Positions 15,245 to 19,385 of a stretch of DNA of 64,000 nt are shown piece by piece; position 1 is the stretch's first letter; the number at the start of each line of letters is the position of its first letter. A program made the position numbers and the translations under genes. Under the pieces are notes generated by a model that was not told the origin of the DNA, made no database searches, and worked only from the letters and a program-made list of their open reading frames with translations. Source of the DNA: an uncultured Verrucomicrobiae bacterium (GTDB taxonomy: Bacteria > Verrucomicrobiota > Verrucomicrobiia > Limisphaerales > UBA1100); contig CALKBX010000005.1 of assembly GCA_937775205.1 (NCBI GenBank), forward strand, positions 124,001 to 188,000, written 5' to 3'.

Positions 15245-16378
15245 ATGCAATTGCAAACCAATCGTAGGAAATTTTTGGGTGCATTGACGGCGGGGGCGAT
15301 TGCGGGACCGTTGCTTTCGGCTCGGCCGAATGTGGTTGGGGCGATTGATTCGCACTTTACGCCGCCGGCGGAGTGGCGGGGGAAGTTGGGGGCGTTTCGG
15401 TCGCTGTTGGTTTTTAAGGATGGGGCGCGGGTGAAGTCGCCGGCGGAGTGGGCGCGGCGGCGGTTGGAGATTCGTGAGGATTGGATGCGGTTGCTGGGGG
15501 CTTGGCCGGAGTTGATTGCGGAGCCGAAGGTGGAGGTTTTGGAATCAAAACGGCGGGAGAATTTTCAGCAACTCAAGGTGAGGTTTAAGTGGACGCCGGT
15601 TGAATCCACGACCGGCTATTTGCTTATCCCCGAGGGCAAAGGCAAACGGCCGGCGGTGGTAACGGTTTTTTATGAACCGGAAACGGCGATTGGGCTCGGC
15701 AAAAATCCGCATCGGGATTTCGCGCTGCAACTGGCGCGGCGCGGGTTTGTCGCGCTTTCCATCGGCACTACGGAGACGACGAACAACGGCACTTACGCCA
15801 CCTATTTTCCATCGATAAAAAACGCCACTGTGCAGCCGCTCTCGATGCTCGGCTGCGTGGCGGCCAATGCGTGGCACGTCCTCGCACAACGACCGGAGGT
15901 GGACAGTACTCGCATCGGTATCGTCGGCCATTCGTACGGCGGCAAGTGGGCGATGTTCGCCTCGTGTTTGTTTGACAAATTTGCCTGCGCCGCGTGGTCT
16001 GATCCCGGCATCGTTTTCGACACGCGCCCGAGCGTGAATTACTGGGAACCGTGGTACCTCGGTTATCACCCCAAGCCGTGGCGCAAACGCGGCGTGCCCA
16101 CCGCCGCCAATCCCGCCCGCGGGGTTTACCCCAAGCTCCTCGCCGCTAAGCGCGACCTTCACGAACTGCACGCGCTAATGGCTCCGCGACCGTTCCTCGT
16201 CAGCGGCGGCTCCGAGGATGGCCCACATCGTTGGGAAGCACTCAATCACACGATCGCCGTCAACGATTTGCTCGGCGTCAAAAACCGTGTGGCGATGACT
16301 AATCGTCCCGCCCATTCGCCGAACGAAAAAAGCAACGCGGTGATTTGCGATTTCTTTGAGCGGTTTTTGAAGGGGTGA
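15245..16378 (+). CDS. Exported alpha/beta hydrolase (Abhydrolase_7-like)
   Basis: A 377-residue hydrolase. I placed the start at ATG 15245 because a Tat-like leader (NRRKFLGALTAGAIAG) begins seven residues later. The upstream extension of the frame has no homology. The nucleophile elbow is GHSYGGKW, an oxyanion-type region reads AVVTVFYEPETAIG, and PFLVSGGSEDGPHRW holds the likely catalytic Asp with a late His (AHSPNEKSN). The family includes dienelactone-hydrolase and acetylxylan-esterase-like enzymes common in PVC bacteria. A periplasmic esterase role on plant or algal polysaccharide is plausible but unproven. Confidence 0.83.
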   Translation: MQLQTNRRKFLGALTAGAIAGPLLSARPNVVGAIDSHFTPPAEWRGKLGAFRSLLVFKDGARVKSPAEWARRRLEIREDWMRLLGAWPELIAEPKVEVLESKRRENFQQLKVRFKWTPVESTTGYLLIPEGKGKRPAVVTVFYEPETAIGLGKNPHRDFALQLARRGFVALSIGTTETTNNGTYATYFPSIKNATVQPLSMLGCVAANAWHVLAQRPEVDSTRIGIVGHSYGGKWAMFASCLFDKFACAAWSDPGIVFDTRPSVNYWEPWYLGYHPKPWRKRGVPTAANPARGVYPKLLAAKRDLHELHALMAPRPFLVSGGSEDGPHRWEALNHTIAVNDLLGVKNRVAMTNRPAHSPNEKSNAVICDFFERFLKG

Positions 16379-16390
16379 TTTTGGATGTTC

Positions 16391-16460
16391 GGACTCGCAA
16401 GCTCGTCCCTCCAATGCAACTGTAGCCGTGTCTTCGATGGAGGGACGAGCTTGCGAGTCC
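16391..16460. repeat. Inverted repeat with 23-bp perfect arms
   Basis: The arms at 16391-16413 and 16438-16460 are exact reverse complements, separated by 24 bases. The element lies between the hydrolase stop and the selenoprotein-like gene. It has no transposase and no T-run. It looks like a small mobile or REP-type hairpin element. Confidence 0.85.
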
Positions 16461-16480
16461 AAAATGAATTTTTGAGATGA

Positions 16481-16873
16481 ATGCCTTTAAGGACATCGCC
16501 ACCTGCACCTTTTGCTCTTTGGTTGGTTGCGTGCACCACGGCGCAGGGGCCGGTGGGGACGGACGCCATTGTGGTGCTGAAATCCGGCAGTTGACCTAAT
16601 GGGGCGCGTGCGGTCGCACGTTTGCGGGAGGTTTTGGCGGAGCACAAGATTTCGCTATCCATTCGTATTCAGGATATTACCATCGAAGAAGAGGCGGTGC
16701 GGCATCGTTATCTTGGCAGCCCTTCCATTCGGATTCACGGGCTGGACATCGATCCGGAAGCGCGCGCCTTCGACGACTACGGCCTCGGCTGACGCCGCTA
16801 TCCGGACGCCGGCGGCGTACCGACCAAAGCCATGATGCTCGAAGCCCTGCGCGAGGCGGAGTTGATTGATTGA
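16481..16873 (+). CDS. Putative selenoprotein, thioredoxin-fold, two in-frame TGA
   Basis: This frame runs from ATG 16481 to a TGA stop at 16871-16873, interrupted only by TGA at 16592-16594 and 16790-16792. Read as selenocysteine it gives 130 residues with Sec38 and Sec104. Sec38 sits in IVVLKSGS-U-PNGARA, where relatives I know have a Cys after the first beta strand ('..FDGCPN..'). Sec104 sits in DYGLG-U-RRY, where relatives have 'DYGLxCRxY'. The cis-proline loop YLGSPSIRIHG is intact. A lipobox-like LVAC precedes residue 20, so it may be a lipoprotein; a GTG at 16553 would start without it. A SECIS-like hairpin follows the first TGA. The alternative is a pseudogene with two nonsense mutations. 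No selA, selB or selC lies in the window. Confidence 0.7.
16607..16620 (+). promoter_or_regulatory. Candidate bacterial SECIS hairpin with GGUC apical loop
   Basis: Five perfect base pairs (CGUGC / GCACG) close a four-base loop GGUC at 16612-16615. The loop begins 17 bases after the TGA at 16592-16594. E. coli fdhF SECIS also has a GGUC loop recognised by SelB, at nearly the same distance. The element is within the coding frame, as bacterial SECIS elements are. The bulged U of fdhF is not obvious here. Confidence 0.6.
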
Positions 16874-18394: not shown

Positions 18395-19385
18395 TTGAAT
18401 TCACAAAAGCAAGAGGTCATCGCGGGTATGGAGGGATTTGTCTCCGGCCAGCTTGGGTTGTTGGATTCGCTGGACGAATGCTGGCAGCCGCAGGATTTAT
18501 TGCCGGACTTGACGGCCGAAGATTGGGCGGATCGGGTGAAGGCATTTCGTGCACCATCGGTAGGTCTTGTCCGATGCGGTGCTGGTGGTGTTGGTGGGCG
18601 ATATGGTGACGGAAGAAGCGCTGCCAACTTATCAGTCATTGCTCAACGGCTTCGAGGGCATCGGCGACAAAACCGGCGCCGACGAAAGCCCGTGGGCGCA
18701 ATGGACGCGCGGCTGGACGGCGGAAGAAAATCGGCACGGGGATTTGCTTAACAAATATCTGTACCTCACCGGCCGCGTGGATATGCGCGCGGTGGAGCTG
18801 ACGATTCAAAATTTATTGCGCAACGGGTTTGATCCCGGCACCGCGCAGGATCCGTACAAGGGGTTTGTTTACACCTCGTTTCAGGAACGGGCCACCAAGA
18901 TTTCGCACAAAAACGTGGCCCAGCTCGCGCGCGCCGAAGGCGACGAACATTTGCAAGCCATTTGCAGCGCCATCGCCACTGACGAAGCGCGCCACGAAAA
19001 GGCATACACCAATTTCATGGGCCACATTTTCGAGCAAGACCCCAACGGCGCGGTGCTGGCGTTTCGCGATTTGATGCGCGACCAAATCGTGATGCCCTCG
19101 CACCTGATGGAAGATGGCGCGGGCCCCGGCTTGTTCGAAAGTTTCTCCACCGTCGCGCAGCAACTCGGCGTGTACACGGCGAAACATTACGCGGAGATTG
19201 TCGAGCACCTCGTCCGTCGCTGGGATGTGGAACACTTGGCCGGGCTCACCGGCGAGGTCGCCGAGGCGCAGGATTATTTGTGCCGACTCGGCGCGCGTTA
19301 TGCAAAACTCGCCGAGCGCAGCCTACACCGCCAATCCAAAGTAGAGCCACGGCAGTTCAGTTGGGTTTTCAGCCGGGCGGTGTAA
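18395..19385 (+). CDS. Acyl-ACP desaturase, frameshifted near 18565
   Basis: Together the two frames encode a soluble ferritin-like fatty acyl-ACP desaturase of about 329 residues. The di-iron motifs are EENRHG and DEARHEKAY. The first frame begins at a TTG (18395; an ATG follows at 18428) and covers LLDSLDECWQPQDLLPD. It then loses homology after KAFRAPSVGL. The second frame picks up at SDAVLVVLVGDMVTEEALPTYQ. Deleting one T in GGTCTTGTCC at about 18562-18572 restores a continuous sequence. An assembly indel or a real disabling mutation are both possible. The enzyme would introduce a double bond into acyl-ACP for membrane lipids. Confidence 0.85.

Follow-up and report, generated by a model that had tools for sequence, protein, structure and literature searches.

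A predicted double-selenocysteine protein of the DF family in an uncultured Verrucomicrobiae bacterium

Introduction

Can a reading frame that is interrupted by two in-frame TGA codons be a gene for a protein with two selenocysteine (Sec) residues? This question is raised by positions 16481-16873 of a stretch of 64,000 nucleotides (the window; positions 124001-188000 of contig C5) from the genome of an uncultured Verrucomicrobiae bacterium (G000; assembly of 3.25 Mb in 31 contigs, 92% complete and 3.7% contaminated). An earlier note on this DNA had proposed an overlooked selenoprotein. The gene with its two TGA codons was borne out by our analysis; the family as such, however, is already known, having been named DF in 2025 with a single Sec residue. 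It is represented by the curated model NF049942, termed 'DF family (seleno)protein', whose cut-off of 70 bits is exceeded by the proteins of G000 (89.3 bits) and of the genomes G004 (92.5 bits), G054 (87.0 bits), and G877 (90.0 bits).

The DF family originates from the deep-Sep study, in which the hypothetical protein DF of Desulfosediminicola flagellatus was described as lacking homologues with a TGA in other organisms that use Sec (PMC12013277). A review of 2026 lists DF with one Sec residue in its Table 1 and assigns two to three Sec residues to only a small subset of 119 families or subfamilies (PMC13188914). This review was the only publication found in a literature search for NF049942, most subscription papers lying outside the search, and within the literature so covered a double-Sec branch of the DF family appears to be undescribed. 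The window protein and the D. flagellatus protein belong to the same family by the curated model and share the exchange of Sec and cysteine; in contrast to the one Sec residue of the latter, the branch described here has two predicted Sec residues, occurs in five genomes of another phylum, and consists of predicted lipoproteins. What would be new is thus a conserved double-Sec branch with Sec at both conserved DF positions, by which the family is extended from a single one-Sec protein to another phylum and joins the few families in bacteria that have two Sec residues. On the comparative evidence presented below, we consider it very probable that the frame is a functional gene for a translated double-Sec protein of the DF family.

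Gene structure

The features of the locus, all on the plus strand, are as follows.

16477-16873, plus strand: probable full gene of a predicted double-Sec lipoprotein of the DF family, delimited by DNA alignment with the G004 copy
16481-16870, plus strand: open frame of the earlier note, 130 codons with two internal TGAs (by translation; match to NF049942 with 89.3 bits, E=1.3e-25)
16532-16534, plus strand: predicted lipobox cysteine (..LVAC-T..; ..LGAC-T.. in G004), from the translation and a lipobox-like cysteine in all five copies
16592-16594, plus strand: TGA1, predicted Sec38, where helix 1 begins in the model (thioredoxin nucleophile position); the column holds cysteine in every Cys-form homologue and TGA in five genomes
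16606-16621, plus strand: bSECIS-like hairpin after TGA1, pairs conserved in five genomes
16715-16723, plus strand: cis-proline loop motif G-S-P of the thioredoxin fold, residues 79-81, invariant in the alignment
16790-16792, plus strand: TGA2, predicted Sec104, in the motif ..DYGLG-U-R..; the column holds cysteine in every Cys-form homologue and TGA in five genomes
16804-16821, plus strand: bSECIS-like hairpin after TGA2, pairs conserved in five genomes
16871-16873, plus strand: terminal TGA, the normal stop; the G004 copy ends at about the same place and the frame beyond is not conserved

When TGA is read as a residue, the frame 16481-16873 specifies 130 residues and a terminal TGA, and translation confirmed the earlier reading that it is broken only at codons 38 and 104. 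A frame with two TGAs is by itself no evidence for a gene, since the 64-kb window contains 40 raw frames of at least 120 codons that start with Met and hold two or three TGAs before a TAA or TAG codon. The case for the predicted gene rests on homology, namely on the presence of both TGAs at the same columns in four further genomes. Compared with the same-genus copy in G004, the leader of the window copy has one extra base (TTTT against TT near 16515). The start of the G004 copy aligns with ATG 16477, which is put out of frame by this shift. The ATG at 16481, taken as the start in the earlier note, does lie in frame, but the homologous start is rather ATG 16477, which is probably the real one, ATG 16481 being an in-frame ATG after the leader shift. 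Gene calling with table 11 would truncate the gene in several genomes.

Elsewhere in the window TGA terminates translation in the usual way; the esterase gene upstream ends with it at 16376-16378. Just upstream of the predicted DF gene lies a perfect inverted repeat of 22 bases, GGACTCGCAAGCTCGTCCCTCC (16391-16412 on the plus strand and 16439-16460 on the minus strand), which has only these two matches in the window; a related sequence precedes the G004 copy. Two other genomes (G001, L086; G002, L087) carry a peptidase-like gene in place of the DF gene between the esterase and a cold-shock gene.

Homologues and selection

Homologues were sought in 58 relatives, in the order (320 genomes), in the class (384 genomes), and in the order of G877 (387 genomes). 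Among the 58 relatives, the two-TGA gene was found in G004 (same genus, 82% identity) and G054 (same order, 42% identity), and the wider searches brought two more copies that likewise carry both TGAs, one in G877, whose genome is a single contig, and one in G893. In all five copies the two TGAs occupy the same two columns, at identities down to 31-42%, and none has any other stop inside the domain; the five genomes represent three families of one class. Every aligned homologue of the Cys form (from Methylacidimicrobium and relatives, Armatimonadetes, Actinomycetota, Pseudonocardia, and Mycolicibacterium) has cysteine at both columns, in agreement with the earlier recognition of both TGA positions as family cysteines.

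Across the sampled genome sets the Sec form is rare. The Cys-form genome G736, which belongs to the same class as G000, is tied by identical sequences to Verrucomicrobia bacterium LP2A, in line with a verrucomicrobial source of the window. A scan of the genome contigs with the single protein as query gave no match, and the same scan with a tighter family alignment gave four loci, all of the Cys form; a plasmid search yielded three actinobacterial Cys forms. The tree contains one change to the Sec form with support of 68/84, by which a single origin is not settled.

The close relative G004, to which the earlier note would have looked for further disruption, has kept both TGAs, and its comparison with G000 over 107 codons by the NG86 method resulted in a dN of 0.075 and a dS of 0.295 (dN/dS about 0.25). 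Between TGA1 and TGA2, dN was 0.050 and dS 0.236; after TGA2, the values were 0.20 and 0.41 (about 0.5), calculated from only 25 codons. These figures point to purifying selection downstream of TGA1 that is weaker after TGA2, and translation is thus well supported beyond TGA1 and more weakly beyond TGA2.

Selenocysteine machinery and frame splits

The absence of sel genes from the window had been noted before and is correct; in G000, tRNA-Sec (67.4 bits, anticodon TCA), selA, selD, and selB (342.6 bits) are clustered on another contig, C26. The search for selB and tRNA-Sec that the earlier note had suggested as a check was therefore passed. A tRNA-Sec with 66-69 bits is present in G000, G004, G054, and G877, in each of which ARAGORN likewise predicts a tRNA-Sec with the anticodon TCA. 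These four TGA-form genomes all have a selB over the cut-off, which none of the five Cys-form genomes has (G323, G736, G732, G364, and G336); with the genomes treated as independent, such a distribution has a chance probability of 1/126. Matches to the tRNA-Sec model in Cys-form genomes are weak (about 40-53 bits) and probably represent other tRNAs that have a long variable arm. The selD gene of G054 (L043, C219:3940-4863) has an in-frame TGA itself and probably encodes a Sec-containing SelD.

In G000, selD (L017:11947-12983, C26, minus strand) changes frame near L017 12480 and is thereby split in two; a real split would abolish the synthesis of selenophosphate. The gene is intact in G002, G004, G005, and G007, three of which belong to the same genus and one to the same family. 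An unrelated neighbour in the window, the gene at 18428-19382, is broken in a similar manner, forming one frame in G004 and two in G000, and when the selenium-cluster genes were compared in both directions, no G004 gene was broken relative to G000. Together with the extra base in the leader, these splits suggest indel errors in the G000 assembly as the simplest reading; alternatively, the split selD may reflect recent decay.

Two rival readings of the locus were rejected on the grounds of the shared TGAs, purifying selection, the nearby TGA stop, the equivalence with cysteine, and the sel genes. That the frame is a pseudogene, in which two nonsense mutations hit both family cysteines by chance, would fit the leader frameshift and the split selD of G000, but is extremely improbable given that both TGAs recur in five genomes from three families, that the domain has no further stop in any of them, and that there are signs of purifying selection. 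Hardly more credible is the decoding of TGA as an amino acid other than Sec, through an altered code or natural suppression: the comparative data would look alike, but TGA terminates the neighbouring gene, the aligned residue is cysteine, and selA, selB, selD, and tRNA-Sec accompany the TGA form, with no selB in the Cys-form genomes tested.

Putative recoding hairpins

In the preferred reading, both in-frame UGAs would be read as Sec by SelB and tRNA-Sec, and a hairpin just downstream of each UGA would help Sec insertion. The first hairpin consists of six pairs (16606-16611 with 16616-16621) enclosing a GGTC loop (16612-16615), whose first base lies 20 nt downstream of the T of TGA1. In the five copies, loop and spacing are identical and 100% of the pairs are kept, two of them with compensatory changes, compared with averages of 82.8-83.9% paired in shuffles and at most 66.7% with slid partners. 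The SECIS of E. coli fdhF likewise has a GGUC loop. The second hairpin has the arms GGACGC and GCGTaCC and a G-rich loop of five bases (CGGCG, 16810-16814); 96.7% of its pairs are kept in the five copies with one compensatory change, in an alignment that needs a two-base shift in the genus of the window. At both sites, the hairpin that follows the UGA has a G among the first two bases of its loop, as bSECIS elements do. In comparison with synonymous-codon shuffles, the folding energies of the hairpins at TGA1 and TGA2 of G000 were not significant, and energies far stronger than those of the shuffles occurred only at the TGA2 sites of G054 and G877. For G000, the hairpin argument is therefore one of conserved position and covariation.

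The higher dN/dS after TGA2 and the more variable position of the second hairpin could also mean that only TGA1 is efficiently decoded and that TGA2 mostly terminates translation, the main product then being a truncated domain with a single Sec residue. We regard this as improbable, because all five copies have kept TGA2 together with the U-R motif, the alignment reveals a conserved C-terminal helix beyond TGA2, and the second hairpins of G054 and G877 are the very ones whose energies stand out.

Protein structure

The thioredoxin-like fold assigned in the earlier note has gained support from several predictions. A profile of the family matched the archaeal thioredoxin 1fo5 among PDB sequences (E=2.4e-4), an AlphaFold2 model built with five sequences was thioredoxin-like (pLDDT 89.7), and VIA-align of this model retrieved thioredoxins and fold-switched KaiB with Z values up to 8.8. 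Foldseek with the model gave no match at E<=0.001, and Pfam none under E=0.01 for the window protein. Helix 15-29 of the model follows model residue 13, which corresponds to Sec38 and places it at the start of helix 1. The fold, a nucleophile at this position, and the cis-Pro loop would be shared with thioredoxin. Unlike thioredoxin, the window protein has no CxxC motif, nor UxxC or CxxU (it reads U-P-N-G, and cysteine at position +3 is found in no copy), its second redox residue is located far downstream, and it carries a lipobox-like leader. SelW-like (Rdx) proteins (PDB 2obk/2oka) are moderately similar in fold, with a Foldseek TM of about 0.53 by query (0.63 by target). They came up neither in the profile search of PDB sequences nor among the VIA-align matches listed, the latter being no argument against a relationship. 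They use a CxxU/CxxC motif.

As for the lipobox-like leader of the earlier note, a hydrophobic leader and a lipobox-like cysteine were recognized by eye in all five Sec-form copies, the leader frame being disturbed in that of G000, and the Cys forms are without such a leader. Apart from Sec, the mature domain has no cysteine in four of the five copies, including that of G000, and one cysteine in G877; the Sec pair is thus probably the active site. More than one Sec residue per chain is also known from MbdU, Prx-like UxxU, and MduS (PMC13188914, Table 1), which belong to other families, unlike the window protein with its predicted Sec residues 66 positions apart in a thioredoxin-like fold.

Possible function

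From these data we infer not only Sec insertion itself but also export, the spatial meeting of the two Sec residues, and their chemistry. The product would be a thioredoxin-fold domain with predicted export and a lipid anchor, in which the Sec pair replaces two invariant cysteines of the family; the first stands where helix 1 begins, and the second follows the cis-Pro loop at a distance of 66 residues. At the membrane or in the periplasm, the pair might switch back and forth between two selenols and a diselenide within the protein, or might hold a soft metal or metalloid, and our confidence in such a Sec-Sec redox or metal mechanism is evenly balanced. Somewhat more tentatively, we propose an enzyme of thioredoxin-like fold that is exported and has a Sec pair but no cysteine in its active site. 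It would act through a diselenide within the protein or through a metal site with two selenium atoms, and in its lineage an all-Cys cytoplasmic family would have exchanged both cysteines for Sec when it gave rise to a lipoprotein. Should the two Sec residues meet, the protein would offer a small, natural, cysteine-free system for comparing a Sec-Sec with a Cys-Cys pair.

A more specific possibility, to which we give distinctly less than even credence, is a role with thiophilic metals and metalloids (Hg, organomercury, As), which the Sec pair would bind, in place of general redox reactions. Soft-metal chemistry is indicated by the contexts of Cys forms and of a sister group: a Cys form on a Pseudonocardia plasmid is located between genes for alkylmercury lyase and rhodanese, behind a MerR gene; in G364 (L022), a Cys-form DF domain shares one frame with a domain resembling low-molecular-weight arsenate reductase; and the sister group is fused to a MerC-like membrane part (L059 in G004, C40; L057 in G024; L058 in G020; L071 in G738). 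However, the MerC matches fall short of the NCBIfam cut-off, and the Sec-form genes examined are without metal-gene neighbours, being found next to the esterase and cold-shock genes in G000 and G004 and to an ftsZ-like gene in G877. The DF-MerC-like fusion of the sister group might transport mercury with the help of a built-in thiol domain.
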